From positions 186,001 through 250,000 of the forward strand of contig DATCTN010000026.1 in the NCBI GenBank assembly GCA_036567965.1: DNA of 64,000 bases. Direction: 5' to 3'. Position 1 is the stretch's first letter. Each line of letters starts with the position of its first letter. The DNA comes from Candidatus Kryptoniota bacterium (GTDB lineage Bacteria > Bacteroidota > Ignavibacteria > Kryptoniales > JAKASW01). Position numbers and translations under genes: made by a program. Shown piece after piece: positions 2,874-9,198 of this stretch. The notes under the pieces were generated by a model. That model saw nothing but the letters and a program-made list of their open reading frames with translations. It searched no databases and was not told the DNA's origin.

Positions 2874-4352
2874 TCAAAAGAAGAATAGCGGCATCGCAAC
2901 AGCACCCACAACGCTCGCAGCAAAATTCACGACATCATTATTGATCCACCGGTATCCCTGCACGAGAACAGTTTCACCCCCGTTACAGTGAGTCCGTCTC
3001 TCTGTTATCTTTCCGCATGTGCCGCACCTGTACTGAGACTGAAGAGTCCCGCCGAGTATGCTGTCCGCAAGACTTCCTATCGCGCCGCTTAACGCGCCAG
3101 CTGCTATGAACCGCACCGGGAAAACTGAGTATCCGCCGGCGAGCGGAAGTGATATCACACCAAGTACTGCCGCCGAAAGAAATCCTGAGAATGTTCCGAG
3201 TGACGAAATCGCTCCGGACATCCCTTTTTCAACTCTTCTCATTGACGCGAGCGAATAGGGGTTTGATTTGGAAAATACTCCGATCTCAGTTGCAAGCGTG
3301 TCCGCGGTGACAGCTGCCAGCGATCCGACATATGCTAGGAACCAATGGTAGTTTGGATAGAGGCAATTTCCTATCAGCATCAACAGTCCAAATCCGCCAT
3401 TAGCGAACACCTGTGCCGCGTCCCGCGTGTGACTCTTCTCATAGAGAAGATTGTAGCCGGCCTTCTGCCTCGCGAACAACTTCGAGGCGAGACTTCCGAT
3501 AATGAAGAATGCGAGAATCGGCGCCGCCCACTTCCACTCGCCATATCCGAATATGAATCCTCCGAGTATGAATGTCGCGACCGCGCCGTCTGTGCCGAGA
3601 AATCTCAACTTGGCGGAAACATATGCCACCAGTAGGGCGAGAAACTCCCCGAGAATAAATACGCTAAGGGTTGATGGGTCGTTCGCCGCTATATACAAAA
3701 GAACAGCCGACGACAGAGGAACGGTCAGGTTGTCCGTGGCTCGCGGGGAGACCAGCTCGATAGCGGCGACCATGATGCCCACGGAGCACGAGACTCCTAT
3801 CAGTGCCCATGAAGTGAGAAAGGCTCCGGTTTGAGCACGAAAGAATGTCAGTCCAAACAGCGTGGCGGCGGCCGCTATAATGAACATCGCTGCGCCACCT
3901 TCGAACGTCTTCCTTTCGCCGAACGCGCCTACAGCATGAGCGTTACGCAGGTTCGAACCGACGATTGCGGCGGCAGGATCCGCTAGACCCATGATCAACA
4001 TGGCGGAGGATACGATGAACGGATGGCTGTCCCACAACAGGAGAACCAGGATCAGGAATGAAACGGGGTAGTAGACTGTGCCGAGATTTTTTCTGTCCGG
4101 GTTTATCCCTTTGAACATCCCGAGACGGACAGAAACGAAGTTGACGACGACAAATGTGCCGGCAAGAAGTGCGGGATAAAGTTTCGAGTGGAACAAGAGT
4201 GGAGCAAAGAACACGACCACGGCGACTGCCGCGTGGACAAATTCACGCGTCTTTTTTCCATCAACTTTGAAACGACCTTTCAGCAGGTCAGCAGCCACGA
4301 CGAAAAGAGTGAGCACGACGAGAATGAGAACAAAATTCAGGAATTCATTCAT
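2874..4352 (-). CDS. Fused prenol kinase (SEC59/VTE5-like) and DUF92 (VTE6-like) membrane protein
   Basis: This 492-residue polytopic membrane protein joins two families. Residues about 1-215 resemble dolichol/phytol kinases, with the REFVHAAVAVV stretch, ADPAAAIVG and KTFEGG matching the family's CTP-binding GD-AA-VG and K-EGS signatures. Residues about 225-492 are a DUF92 domain with GTDGAVATFILGG, ADTLATEIGVFSKSNP and a CGTCGK pair near residue 445. In plants and cyanobacteria the first family phosphorylates phytol and the second phosphorylates phytyl phosphate, so the fusion could convert a free prenol to its diphosphate for quinone, tocopherol or chlorophyll side chains. The frame runs upstream to 4436, but the promoter at 4360-4388 points to ATG 4352. 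The substrate is inferred. Confidence 0.82.
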   Translation of the reverse strand: MNEFLNFVLILVVLTLFVVAADLLKGRFKVDGKKTREFVHAAVAVVVFFAPLLFHSKLYPALLAGTFVVVNFVSVRLGMFKGINPDRKNLGTVYYPVSFLILVLLLWDSHPFIVSSAMLIMGLADPAAAIVGSNLRNAHAVGAFGERKTFEGGAAMFIIAAAATLFGLTFFRAQTGAFLTSWALIGVSCSVGIMVAAIELVSPRATDNLTVPLSSAVLLYIAANDPSTLSVFILGEFLALLVAYVSAKLRFLGTDGAVATFILGGFIFGYGEWKWAAPILAFFIIGSLASKLFARQKAGYNLLYEKSHTRDAAQVFANGGFGLLMLIGNCLYPNYHWFLAYVGSLAAVTADTLATEIGVFSKSNPYSLASMRRVEKGMSGAISSLGTFSGFLSAAVLGVISLPLAGGYSVFPVRFIAAGALSGAIGSLADSILGGTLQSQYRCGTCGKITERRTHCNGGETVLVQGYRWINNDVVNFAASVVGAVAMPLFFF

Positions 4353-4419: not shown

Positions 4420-4448
4420 TTGGACTTACTCTCCACGTTACTTAAATT
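4420..4448 (+). promoter_or_regulatory. Promoter TTG-N20-TAAATT for the hut cluster
   Basis: TTG at 4420-4422, 20 bases, then TAAATTTC from 4443. It lies 18 bases before hutH and diverges from the kinase promoter, so the two transcription units share a 114-base control region. Confidence 0.65.
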
Positions 4449-4466: not shown

Positions 4467-6020
4467 ATGCCCGACCTTCTCCTCGACGGTGAGTCGCTAA
4501 CGGTCGAATCCGCATATCTCGCCGAGCGGCAAAGGATGAAAGTCTCCATATCGAAACCCGCAAGGAAGAAGATGGGCCGCTCGCGGAAAAAGATTGAAGA
4601 ATGGCTTTCCCGGGGCGACGCGATCTACGGCGTGACGACGGGGTTCGGAGAGTTTGCAACGGTCAACATACCTCACGAGAAGATAAAAGAGCTCCAGGTA
4701 AATTTGATCAGGAGCCACTCGGCGGGCACAGGCGATCCTCTTCCGCCGGATATCGCAAGGATGATAATTCTTTTGCGCGCTAATGCGCTGGCCAAAGGCT
4801 ACAGCGGAGTGACCCCGGAGGTCGTCGACAAACTTCTTGAAGCCTTCAACCTATACCTGATCCCGTTCATTCCATCGAAGGGCTCAGTTGGGAGCAGCGG
4901 TGATCTCGTTCAACTCGCGCATCTTGTCCTTGCACTGATCGGCGAAGGGAGCTTCATCGAAGATGGAAGAATCGTTCCATCCGCTGAAGTCCTCCGAAAA
5001 AACAAAATCGATCCGCTTGTTCTCTCCGCAAAGGAGGGACTCGCGCTTGTGAACGGCACTCAAATGATGGGGGCATTCGCAGTCCATTGCGTTTACGAGG
5101 CACTTCAGCTCGCAAAGATCTTCGATATCACCGGTGCATTGAGCGTGGAGGCGCTTCGTGGAACTGATGTCGCATTCGACGAGCGAATTCACAAGCTGAG
5201 ACCCTACCGCGGCCAGCTCGCTTGCGCTAAGAATGTGAGACGCCTCCTTGCCGGAAGCGAGATACGCAAGTCTCATTTGCATGACGATCCTCGCGTGCAG
5301 GATGCTTATTCACTCCGCTGTATGCCCCAGGTGCACGGCGCGATTCGCGACACGATAGAGTTCTGTAAGAAACAGGTGAACGTCGAGATAAACTCCGCAA
5401 CGGACAATCCGCTGATTATCGCCGAAGATGAGACCCACCTCGAAGGCGGAAATTTCCACGGCGAGCCGCTCGCACTAGTTTGCGATTATCTCGCAATCGG
5501 TCTGAGCGAATACGCCAGTATTTCAGAACGAAGAGTGGAGCGGATGGTAAACGGCCAGCTCAGCGGCCTTCCGAAATTCCTGAGTGAGGATGGCGGACTG
5601 AATTCGGGCATGATGATCGCACAATACACAGCCGCCTCGCTCGTCAGCGAGAACAAAGTCCTATCACATCCGGCGAGTGTTGACTCGATACCGACAAGCG
5701 CAAACCAGGAAGATCACAACTCTATGGGCTCAATCGCAGCACTGAAATGCTACCAGGTGCTCGAAAATGTGTGGAGAGTCGCGGCGATCGAGCTTCTTGT
5801 CGCCTGCCAGGCAATAGATTTCGCGAGGAAGCTCGCCGGCAAAGGCCGCGAACTCAATTGTGGAAAAGGTACCGAAAAAGTCTACAGGCTTGTCCGCAAG
5901 AAAATTTCGCATTTGGACAGGGACCGCGTACTCTACAGGGACATAGAAAACGCACTTGGGATGTTAAAATCTGGCGACATTATCAACGCGGCTGAGAGTG
6001 AATCGGGAGAACTCGAATAA
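4467..6020 (+). CDS. hutH: Histidine ammonia-lyase (Ser-Ser-Gly MIO triad)
   Basis: Deaminates histidine to urocanate, the first step of histidine breakdown. The 517-residue protein has the family blocks YGVTTGFGEFA, NLIRSHSAG (His84, equivalent to the substrate-binding His83 of the Pseudomonas enzyme), VQDAYSLRCMPQVHG, NSATDNPL and QEDHNSMGS. The catalytic MIO cofactor normally forms from Ala-Ser-Gly. Here residues 143-145 read Ser-Ser-Gly within GSVGSSGDLVQLAH, so the cyclising serine and glycine are kept and only the first residue differs. The start ATG at 4467 sits just after a well-formed promoter and an AAGGAAG stretch. Location next to hutU supports histidine over phenylalanine or tyrosine as substrate. 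Confidence 0.93.
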   Translation: MPDLLLDGESLTVESAYLAERQRMKVSISKPARKKMGRSRKKIEEWLSRGDAIYGVTTGFGEFATVNIPHEKIKELQVNLIRSHSAGTGDPLPPDIARMIILLRANALAKGYSGVTPEVVDKLLEAFNLYLIPFIPSKGSVGSSGDLVQLAHLVLALIGEGSFIEDGRIVPSAEVLRKNKIDPLVLSAKEGLALVNGTQMMGAFAVHCVYEALQLAKIFDITGALSVEALRGTDVAFDERIHKLRPYRGQLACAKNVRRLLAGSEIRKSHLHDDPRVQDAYSLRCMPQVHGAIRDTIEFCKKQVNVEINSATDNPLIIAEDETHLEGGNFHGEPLALVCDYLAIGLSEYASISERRVERMVNGQLSGLPKFLSEDGGLNSGMMIAQYTAASLVSENKVLSHPASVDSIPTSANQEDHNSMGSIAALKCYQVLENVWRVAAIELLVACQAIDFARKLAGKGRELNCGKGTEKVYRLVRKKISHLDRDRVLYRDIENALGMLKSGDIINAAESESGELE

Positions 6021-6036
6021 TGGAACGGAGACGAAT

Positions 6037-6306
6037 ATGGAAGTGACATTTCAAGTGAGCCTTTATCCAATCGCGCAAACGAATTTCCGGAAACCGATAA
6101 ACGGATTCATAGCGAATTTGAAATCGGATCAATTGAAATTGGAAGTTCAGGAGACTTCAACGATTGGGATCGGCGACATCGAACTGGTTTTTGAGTCGTT
6201 GAAGCAAGCTTATAAGCAAGCATGTGGGTCGGGCGCCACTGTCATGGTACTGACAATAGTTAACGAGCACCCGACCAGGGAAGAGCTGAACAAATTGAAC
6301 GAATGA
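6037..6306 (+). CDS. Small YkoF-like (thiamine/HMP-binding fold) protein
   Basis: An 89-residue soluble protein resembling one repeat of the YkoF/thiamine-binding family: a beta strand with QVSLYPIAQTNF, a middle strand around STIGIGDIELVFESLKQA, and a final VMVLTIVNEHP strand. In Bacillus, YkoF binds hydroxymethylpyrimidine or thiamine; the ligand here is unknown. I place the start at ATG 6037 because an ACGGAG sequence precedes it; the frame could also begin at GTG 5998 inside hutH. It sits between hutH and the deaminase gene, spaced 16 and 38 bases, so it is co-transcribed. A role binding an imidazole or pyrimidine compound is only a guess. Confidence 0.65.
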   Translation: MEVTFQVSLYPIAQTNFRKPINGFIANLKSDQLKLEVQETSTIGIGDIELVFESLKQAYKQACGSGATVMVLTIVNEHPTREELNKLNE

Positions 6307-6344
6307 CACTTTGTTGAATGAGTACTAATACACAGGAGAGCTGA

Positions 6345-7427
6345 ATGCCGGGTTTGTCTAAAGCTATCAAAGAAATGCCGAAGGTGCTTCTGCATGACCA
6401 CCTCGACGGCGGCCTCAGGCCGAAGACCGTCATCGAGCTTGCCCGTGATCAGAAGTACAAAAAACTTCCCACTCAGGATCCGGAGGAGTTGGCGGAGTGG
6501 TTCCATCGAGGCGCGAATCGAGGAAGTCTTCCTCTCTACCTTGAAGGTTTTGCTCACACCACCGGTGTTATGCAGACGGACGAAGCGCTCGAGCGTGTTG
6601 CCTATGAAATGATTGAGGATATGAAGAAAGACCATGTTGTGTACGTCGAGACCCGATTCGCGCCTGTGTTTCACACGCAAGGAGGGCTTCACTGGGAAGA
6701 GGTGGTCGCGTCCGTGCTGCGCGGACTCGAGAAGGGGAGGAAAGATTTTGGCGTAGGATACGGTCTGATCATCTCGGCCATGAGAAACATGAACCTCAGC
6801 GAGGAGATGGCGCAGCTCGCGGTGGATTTCAGGGAGCGCGGTGTAGTCGGGTTCGATCTTGCAGGCGAAGAGGGAGGCTATCCCCCGAAAAAGCACGTCG
6901 ATGCGTTCCACTATATTCAAAGACAAAATTTCAACATAACGATCCACGCCGGTGAAGGATTTGGAATGGAATCGATCTGGCAGGCGATACAATGGTGCGG
7001 AGCTCACCGTATCGGACACGCGACGCGACTGATAGATGACATCATCCAGTCCGACGGAAAAACTGTCAAGCTCGGCACTCTCGCCCAATATATCCTCGAC
7101 AAACGGATTCCTCTGGAAATTTGCCCGAGCTCGAACGTTCACACCGGAGCAGCAAAGGACATTGAACATCATCCATTCGGAGTCTACTTCCGTGAGAAGT
7201 TTCGCGTTACCGTAAATACGGACAACCGGCTCATGAGCGCGACGAATATTTCTAAAGAATTTCAAATCGTTGCAGACGTCTTTCGTGTATCATTCGATGA
7301 CATGGAAAAGCTCACCATCAATTCCATGAAGAGTGCTTTCCTCCCTTATGGCGAGCGAATAAGATATATATATGAATCCATAAAGCCAGGATATGAGAAG
7401 CTTCGGAAGAAGTACAAGCTCAAATAG
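6345..7427 (+). CDS. add: Adenosine deaminase-family protein
   Basis: Predicted zinc hydrolase that deaminates adenosine or a related purine nucleoside. Metal and catalytic motifs are intact over 360 residues: LLHDHLDGG (His17, His19), TIHAGE with the metal histidine and catalytic glutamate, RIGHATRL, CPSSN, and NTDNRLMS, where the metal aspartate is followed by Asn as in actinobacterial Add proteins rather than the usual Asp. An ACAGGAGAG Shine-Dalgarno lies before ATG 6345. Its place inside a histidine-degradation cluster is unusual. Some members of this family act on 6-aminodeoxyfutalosine in menaquinone synthesis, so adenosine itself is likely but not certain. Confidence 0.85.
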   Translation: MPGLSKAIKEMPKVLLHDHLDGGLRPKTVIELARDQKYKKLPTQDPEELAEWFHRGANRGSLPLYLEGFAHTTGVMQTDEALERVAYEMIEDMKKDHVVYVETRFAPVFHTQGGLHWEEVVASVLRGLEKGRKDFGVGYGLIISAMRNMNLSEEMAQLAVDFRERGVVGFDLAGEEGGYPPKKHVDAFHYIQRQNFNITIHAGEGFGMESIWQAIQWCGAHRIGHATRLIDDIIQSDGKTVKLGTLAQYILDKRIPLEICPSSNVHTGAAKDIEHHPFGVYFREKFRVTVNTDNRLMSATNISKEFQIVADVFRVSFDDMEKLTINSMKSAFLPYGERIRYIYESIKPGYEKLRKKYKLK

Positions 7428-7509
7428 AAAAGTTATTTCTACCTGCGATGTATGAGGAAGGGTAAAATCGTTCAAGAAACTGACTTCGGAAAGATACCTG
7501 AGGCGTGAG

Positions 7510-9198
7510 ATGACAATCGAAGGGACTCTAAAAGCCGGGACCGGAGCGCGCGTGATACATGCGCCTCGTGGAACTAAACTGAATACGAAAGGATGGCAGC
7601 AGGAAGCGGCGCTCAGAATGCTGATGAACAATCTCGATCCGGAAGTTGCGGAGAAACCGGATGAGCTCGTGGTCTACGGGGGAAGCGGAAAGGCCGCGAG
7701 AAATTGGGAGGCGTTCGACGCGATCGTTGCAACACTAAAAAGATTGGAGAATGATGAGACTCTCCTGGTCCAATCGGGAAAACCGGTCGCGGTATTCAAG
7801 ACTTATGAGGAAGCGCCGCGGGTTCTTATCTCGAACGCGATGCTCGTCCCCGCCTGGGCGAATTGGGATGAGTTCAGGCGGCTCGAGCAGCTTGGCCTGA
7901 CAATGTTCGGCCAGATGACCGCGGGAAGCTGGATATATATCGGCACGCAGGGAATACTTCAGGGAACCTACGAAACATTCGGCGAAGCCGGGCGAAGACA
8001 TTTCGGGGGGACACTTGCAGGGAGATTCGTCCTCACGAGCGGACTCGGCGGGATGGGCGGCGCTCAACCGCTCGCTGCAACGATGAACGGAGCTGCATTT
8101 CTTGGAGTTGAAGTCGATCGAAGTAGAATCGAAAAGCGGCTGAAGACCGGATATCTCGACAGGATGAGCGAAAGCCTGGACGAGGCGCTCTCACTGGTGC
8201 TCGATGCAAAATCCAGAAAGACAACTCTTTCTGTCGGTCTCCTCGGAAACGCAGCCGACATAATTCCTGAAATCGTAAGGCGAAATATCGTTCCAGATCT
8301 CCTGACAGATCAGACGAGCGCGCACGACACTCTCAACGGATATGTGCCCGCAGGAATATCGTACGACGCCGCGCTCGAACTCCGCATTAAGAATCCACAG
8401 CGTTACATCTCGATGGCCCGCGATTCGATCGTATCTCACGTCAGGGGAATGCTTGAGCTGAAAAGACGCGGAGCAATCACGTTTGACTATGGTAATAATA
8501 TTCGCGGCGAGGCACAATCGGCGGGGGTAAAGGACGCATTCGAAATTCCGGGATTCGTGCCTGAGTTCATTCGACCTCTCTTCTGCGAGGGGAAAGGACC
8601 ATTCCGATGGGTAGCGCTCAGCGGCGACCCGGAGGACATTTTCGCGACTGACGAGGCGGTTGTGAAGACTTTTCCTGAGAACAGTCATCTCGTGAACTGG
8701 ATCGAAAAAGCTCGCAAGCATGTCCATTTCCAGGGACTCCCGGCAAGAATCTGCTGGCTCGGCTACCAGGAGCGGGACAAAATGGGATTGATCTTCAATG
8801 AACTTGTGAAGAGCGGGAAAGTGAAAGCTCCAATCGTAATCGGCCGCGACCACCTCGATGCGGGGAGTGTCGCCTCTCCGAACCGGGAAACTGAGAAAAT
8901 GAAGGATGGGTCGGACGCGATTGCCGATTGGCCTATATTGAACGCCCTACTGAACGCCGTCGGCGGTGCGAGCTGGGTTTCAGTCCACCATGGCGGAGGT
9001 GTCGGTATCGGCTTGTCGATCCATGCAGGGATGGTGGTAGTTGCCGACGGTACCGATGCCGCCGCTCGCAGGTTGAAGCGAGTACTAACGTATGATCCTG
9101 GAATGGGAGTCGTCAGACACGCTGATGCCGGTTACGAAGATGCGATCCGGGAAGCGCGCGATAAAAAGATCGATATGCCGATGCTTAAGAGGCTCTAA
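7510..9198 (+). CDS. hutU: Urocanate hydratase
   Basis: Converts urocanate to imidazolonepropionate using tightly bound NAD+ as an electrophile; second step of histidine degradation after HutH. The 562-residue length is normal for the family. Visible are the N-terminal [19 protein letters not shown], the glycine-rich [20 protein letters not shown] of the NAD+-binding domain, [12 protein letters not shown], the conserved cysteine at residue 415 in [12 protein letters not shown], and [19 protein letters not shown] near the C-terminus. It is 82 bases downstream of the deaminase gene with no evident promoter between them. The enzymes for later steps (hutI, and hutG or hutF) are not in this window. 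Confidence 0.96.

Follow-up and report, generated by a model that had tools for sequence, protein, structure and literature searches.

The question raised by this locus is whether a single bacterial membrane protein can carry both of the kinase steps that would return a free prenol to its diphosphate, and from where free prenols would come in the organism concerned. The window analysed here (a stretch of 64,000 nucleotides from a Candidatus Kryptoniota bacterium) holds a gene in which, according to an earlier note on the same DNA, a SEC59/VTE5-type kinase domain is joined to a DUF92 domain. The interpretation given in that note is partly supported by the analysis described below.

Architecture of the fused gene

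The gene is a minus-strand frame running from 4352 to 2874, stop included, with its ATG at 4352, its final codon ending at 2877, its stop at 2876..2874 and a product of 492 amino acids (Table 1). A GTG at 4436 is a possible upstream start that would extend the frame; relatives at 62-72% identity align with the protein from the ATG at 4352 and share this start. The joining of a SEC59/VTE5-type domain to DUF92 in one membrane protein, as the earlier note had it, is real: the two domains lie in one unbroken frame, the SEC59-like domain preceding DUF92, the C half matches PF01940 (E 4.8e-60) and the fusion recurs in 78 of the 198 genomes sampled from the phylum. Since the same full-length form is found in this sample and in 11 of 13 genomes of the same genus (the window's own counted), the fusion is neither a product of chance nor an assembly join. 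The probability of an assembly or annotation artefact is practically nil, this explanation being ruled out by dozens of independently assembled genomes, several of which consist of a single contig, in which the frame is unbroken. An AlphaFold model of the whole protein was obtained with a mean pLDDT of 92.5 and a pTM of 0.90, and in a Foldseek search with this model CdsA structures ranked 7th and 20th amid unrelated membrane proteins, at non-significant scores.

Table 1. Positions of the fused gene, its two halves and their conserved motifs in the window
Feature	Residues	Position	Strand	Basis or conservation
Fused membrane-protein gene	492 aa	2874..4352	-	
N half, SEC59/VTE5-type (CTP-dependent prenol kinase-like) membrane domain	1-228	3669..4352	-	Profile comparison and alignment A2
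N-half motif R-x-x-x-H	R36..H40	4233..4247	-	Present in every one of A2's 15 rows and in 95% or more of 50 fused proteins
N-half core motif DxxAxxxG ... K(T/S)xxG	D125, A128, G132 ... K148, G152	3897..3980	-	Common to SEC59-like proteins and CdsA
N-half motif E ... DN	E199 ... D207, N208	3729..3758	-	Conserved in the alignments
C half, DUF92 (PF01940, COG1836, VTE6-type) membrane domain	229-492	2877..3668	-	
DUF92 motif RDxxQVxANG	R310, D311, Q314, A317, N318, G319	3396..3425	-	Invariant in alignment A1
DUF92 motif DTxxTExG	D351..G358	3279..3302	-	D351, T352 and G358 invariant in A1; T355 and E356 nearly so
DUF92 acidic residue	D430	3063..3065	-	Invariant in A1
DUF92 CxxC...HC cluster, putative zinc-ribbon-like	C443, C446, H455, C456	2985..3026	-	At least 90% conserved in A1
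DUF92 C-terminal motif NNDVVN	N471..N476	2925..2942	-	Invariant in A1; NND(L/H/R/T)VN in more distant relatives

Family membership of the two halves

The N half, scanned alone as a single sequence, had no Pfam or NCBIfam match, and a PDB sequence search with it returned no significant match, so that profile methods were required. It gave no match at the gathering score of PF01148, a model that touches 4 of 15 N-half homologues weakly (E up to 1, best 7e-4); this miss does not exclude membership, because the PF01148 cut-off is missed by the genus's standalone SEC59-like proteins too. When a profile was built from an alignment of 50 fused proteins, hhalign matched it to the SEC59-like protein of the window's genome and relatives of that protein in the genus at 97.8% (E 8e-13, columns 25-222) and to CdsA at 93.8% (E 1.7e-7); reversed profiles, used as controls, gave 0.3% and 8%, and block-shuffled ones, in which short motifs are kept, up to 53% against SEC59. 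In hmmsearch the same half found a standalone VTE5-like protein at E 2e-38 and a second one at 9e-28, where VTE5-like denotes standalone bacterial relatives and is a label that does not come from comparison with characterised VTE5, FOLK or SEC59 sequences. The SEC59-like set followed at E 1e-11 to 3e-16 (1.4e-14 for the genome's own protein), and CdsA at about 1e-8, down to 9e-10. These profile comparisons assign the N half to the SEC59/VTE5/CdsA superfamily, and membership in the SEC59/VTE5 family, the point on which the earlier note had staked its reading, is borne out.

The residues conserved in at least 95% of the 50 fused proteins are R36, H40, G91, P96, D125, A128, G132, K148, G152, E199, D207, N208 and P212, and the SEC59/VTE5 (COG0170) signature, RxxxH ... 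DxxAxxxG ... K(S/T)xxG ... E ... DN, is intact in the N half, its DxxAxxxG ... K(S/T)xxG core being identical in the N half, the SEC59-like proteins and CdsA. The separate SEC59-like membrane protein of the window's genome is encoded at G000:C6:91591-92271 (L066) and is present in most of the genus, scoring below the PF01148 cut-off. Two further relatives were observed: a 224-aa standalone VTE5-like protein at L159:6148-6822 (G112), which adjoins a DUF3419 protein in a genome that has no DUF92 match, and a fused protein of 729 aa at L154:7444-9633 (G142), with about 200 extra residues before the SEC59-like half that have no Pfam match.

The C half matches PF01940 over residues 238-484 with 203.5 bits, where the cut-off is 27.5, covering model positions 2-251 of 251, and reaches 125.9 bits with TIGR00297, under the cut-off of 205.85. 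Judged by these scores, it is inside the DUF92 superfamily and outside the narrower hypothetical equivalog TIGR00297. The DUF92 signature residues are intact in alignment A1 (R310, D311, Q314, N318, G319, D351, T352, G377, S379, D430, the CxxC...HC cluster and N471-N476). The AlphaFold pLDDT of this half is 90.8, and in Foldseek the CdsA structures 4q2g and 4q2e came out on top with weak scores (best probability 0.57, E 0.42). That DUF92 is homologous to the CTP_transf_1 family has been published, with an HHpred probability of 97.57% for MJ_0933 (PMC5898192), and its relationship with the kinase superfamily rests on this published result; it was not reproduced by the present profiles, which are smaller than those behind that result and gave 41% (E 2.8e-4) for DUF92 against CdsA in hhalign. 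Under an internal duplication the N half would be expected to match the C half; hhalign gave 26% for this pair, and the reversed control gave 18%. COG1836 was predicted in 2011 to act in phytol-phosphate metabolism (PMC3223725).

Distribution and inheritance of the fusion

Beyond the genus, full-length fusions were also found in Calditrichota, KSB1, Marinimicrobia and Ignavibacteriales records, and 42 genomes of the phylum sample carry DUF92 alone. In a spirochaete (L063) two adjoining genes, 5917-6606 and 6606-7457, encode the halves separately, with their order unchanged. The identities of the N and C halves over 1596 pairs of fused proteins are correlated with a Pearson coefficient of 0.86, a value reached in 0 of 1000 Mantel permutations, and since the halves diverge in step the fusion is old and has been passed on as one unit. 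In the tree of DUF92 sequences, the rows with DUF92 only are scattered among the fused ones, with eight changes of which at least three are forced by starred branches, and we infer that the N half has most likely been lost repeatedly. The N half matched nothing in the plasmid collection, and the single DUF92 match there is in Thermomicrobium: a DUF92 coding stretch, 36% identical, on the Thermomicrobium roseum plasmid NC_011961.1:548053-548739, where the distributed gene table, itself incomplete, has no gene.

The neighbours of the gene in the window, read from the open frames, are transketolase-, Pgi- and histidine-utilisation-like genes, and beside it in most genomes of the genus lie histidine ammonia-lyase-like (4467-6020), adenosine deaminase-like (6345-7427) and urocanase-like (7510-9198) genes, named by eye; neighbours in relatives include sigma-factor-like, TPR, KdsA/DAHP-synthase-family and TonB/ExbB genes. 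The neighbours in the window and in the relatives show no link with isoprenoids, bar a PAP2 phosphatase near one Marinimicrobia copy. In Ignavibacteria a fused or a DUF92-only gene occupies the same place, between a sigma-factor-like gene and a TPR protein. This conserved neighbourhood (L037, L041-L049, L054, L061, L074 and L076-L079) consists of the sigma-factor-like gene, more small genes, DUF92, the TPR protein of about 990 aa and a protein of about 530 aa.

In one genome of the same genus, G007 (L082:4613-5312), the fused gene is wrecked: residues 1-121 and then about 372-491 are left, with frameshifts, and some 250 codons (about residues 123-373), including both core motifs, are missing through a deletion or an assembly error. 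A match to the fused protein was absent from G004, of the same genus, and from G016. Given the internal deletion in G007 and the lack of a match in G004, the gene seems dispensable, and the many relatives that keep DUF92 without the N half indicate that the two halves are not always needed together.

Link with phototrophy and possible sources of free prenols

The earlier note proposed to profile the fusion against bacteriochlorophyll or menaquinone genes. Bacteriochlorophyll/chlorophyll synthase (BchG) was scored by TIGR01476 over its cut-off, and all 49 BchG-positive genomes, belonging to families f24, f26 and f39, carry the fusion (p 2e-26, kinship uncorrected); 29 more fused genomes are BchG-negative, that of the window among them. 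By the BchG marker, f24, f26 and f39 are most likely green sulfur bacteria. Chlorophyll synthase is absent from the window's genome, where the nearest UbiA protein reaches 66 bits against a cut-off of 212. The presence of the fusion in such a non-phototrophic setting is unexpected, and the question of where free prenols come from, which the earlier note had posed, is a fair one to which a partial answer can be given: there is no chlorophyll synthase, but a GGGP synthase, a DGGGP-synthase-like protein and a geranylgeranyl reductase (GGR) are present.

In this regard, the window's genome encodes a GGR at 255 bits, a GGGP synthase/PcrB at 153 bits and a UbiA protein which is nearest to archaeal-type prenyltransferases including GGGP geranylgeranyltransferase (hence DGGGP-synthase-like) and which falls below equivalog cut-offs, together with two polyprenyl synthases, five UbiA proteins over cut-off and one menaquinone-type prenyltransferase. 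The ether-lipid set (PcrB, DGGGP-synthase-like UbiA and GGR) lies at G000:C12:133389-134075 (L160), G000:C6:76016-76690 (L126) and G000:C6:199323-200216 (L131). Archaeal ether-lipid genes are known in bacteria of the FCB group (PMC7852524), and these enzymes are a possible source of geranylgeraniol here.

PcrB occurs in 24 of 29 fused non-phototrophs against 4 of 42 DUF92-only genomes, and PcrB and GGR together in 20 of 29 against 3 of 42; within family f10 the SEC59-like half tracks PcrB plus GGR exactly (8/8 against 0/6). Conversely, PcrB is also found in 38 of the 76 genomes that carry neither a SEC59-like nor a DUF92 domain, and family f6 has the fusion and lacks PcrB. After correction for relatedness, the tree supports only three independent changes, a number at which significance is unreachable (sign test, median p 0.5), and the association with PcrB and GGR, which does not survive this correction, is best regarded as a lead. 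That the fused kinase of non-phototrophic Bacteroidota/FCB bacteria might recycle geranylgeraniol, or reduced forms of it, from lipids made by archaeal-type ether-lipid enzymes, the SEC59-like half being kept or lost along with GGGP synthase and GGR, is a tentative and, on balance, unlikely proposal.

Proposed function and alternative readings

The best reading of the protein, from homology and co-occurrence, is a two-step prenol kinase. It is considered fairly probable that the gene product is a bifunctional salvage kinase, integral to the membrane, which acts from prenol to prenyl diphosphate, and the protein probably recycles free isoprenoid alcohols in this way. In the proposed mechanism the N half, of SEC59/VTE5 type, would phosphorylate a free prenol to the prenyl monophosphate, which the C half, of DUF92/VTE6 type, would phosphorylate to the diphosphate, both halves probably using CTP and a divalent cation, while the fusion would hold the lipophilic monophosphate on one protein. 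The substrates are likely to be of the C15-C20 class (farnesol, geranylgeraniol or phytol), freed by turnover of prenyl lipids; their source would be bacteriochlorophyll in the phototrophic relatives, and here perhaps archaeal-type ether lipids or an external supply. What is observed here are the identities of the domains, their conserved residues, how old and widespread the fusion is, the joint divergence of its halves and its occurrence with BchG; the reactions, the use of CTP, the N-then-C direction and the substrate are modelled on VTE5, FOLK and VTE6, characterised kinases that prefer CTP and need divalent cations (review PMC9782597).

Long-chain polyprenols offer another class of substrate, in which undecaprenol- or dolichol-type alcohols, and not C15-C20 prenols, would be rephosphorylated for the lipid-carrier pool of glycans. 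SEC59 itself is a dolichol kinase, the sole conserved context of archaeal DUF92 genes is uppS, a long-chain prenyl diphosphate synthase (PMC5898192), and the window's genome has a decaprenyl-phosphate phosphoribosyltransferase-like UbiA; however, supplying a carrier monophosphate needs no second kinase step to the diphosphate, the separate SEC59-like protein (L066, found also in same-genus genomes) is better suited to a carrier role, and the presence of the fusion in every BchG-positive genome points to short prenols, so that this version is distinctly unlikely.

It is quite improbable that the product of one half, or of both, is a CDP-activated lipid, as at the CDP-archaeol synthase step for ether lipids, although both are placed in the CTP_transf_1/CdsA superfamily (the N half here, DUF92 in PMC5898192) and no CDP-archaeol synthase was found in FCB genomes holding other archaeal lipid genes (PMC7852524): the N-half profile fits CdsA (E about 1e-8) much less well than the standalone VTE5-like protein (E 2e-38), family f26, which is BchG-positive, carries the fusion but no PcrB, and a true CdsA (L099) is encoded in the window's genome. 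The retention of DUF92 alone at the same chromosomal site in relatives would also agree with a single active half in this lineage, the other being a structural or regulatory remnant held by the fusion, but the conservation of the N-half signature at 95% or more over 50 fused proteins, distant phyla included, and its divergence in step with DUF92 make this very improbable.

Preference is accordingly given to the two-step prenol kinase, which provides one clean gene for testing a little-studied two-step salvage of prenols in bacteria. Because it occurs where chlorophyll synthase is lacking and archaeal-type ether-lipid genes are present, one can ask in concrete terms where the free prenols come from; if the salvage role is true, the recycling of prenols would belong to bacteria in general and would not be bound to chlorophyll.

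Comparison with known systems

The fused proteins of the BchG-positive relatives have the same full-length architecture and motifs as the window protein, their N halves being 31-34% and their C halves 37-40% identical to those of the latter; these relatives are phototrophic with bacteriochlorophyll synthase, whereas the window's genome is without it. The same two domain types, with the same order of action, are known from VTE5 (phytol kinase) and VTE6 (phytyl-phosphate kinase) of plants and cyanobacteria, where they are separate proteins and not fused as in the window. The contrast with these separate kinases drawn in the earlier note misses the fused form, which all of the BchG-positive relatives sampled have (49/49). 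In Sulfolobus, GGOH kinase and GGP kinase activities have been measured (Ohnuma 1996, as cited in PMC9782597), which correspond to the two successive phosphorylations proposed for the window protein; the first was found in membranes and the second in the cytosolic fraction, and the review does not name the genes.

A similar architecture is that of Mbar_A3310 of Methanosarcina barkeri, an arCOG02245 fusion in which, according to Makarova et al. (2015), DUF92 comes after a SEC59-like N-terminal domain and each of the two has acidic catalytic residues; a kinase step in isoprenoid metabolism was predicted for it (PMC5898192). By this published description it resembles the window protein in having both domains, in the same order, in one membrane protein, and differs in being archaeal and in the uppS context of DUF92, while the window fusion is bacterial, belongs to a non-phototroph and has no isoprenoid neighbours. 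The earlier note held that the fusion ties DUF92 to the kinase family; it is not the earliest such tie, as both the homology and the fusion were already reported by Makarova et al. (2015). The fusion of a SEC59-like domain with DUF92 is already known as a kind, and the bacterial case in the window is a member of it.
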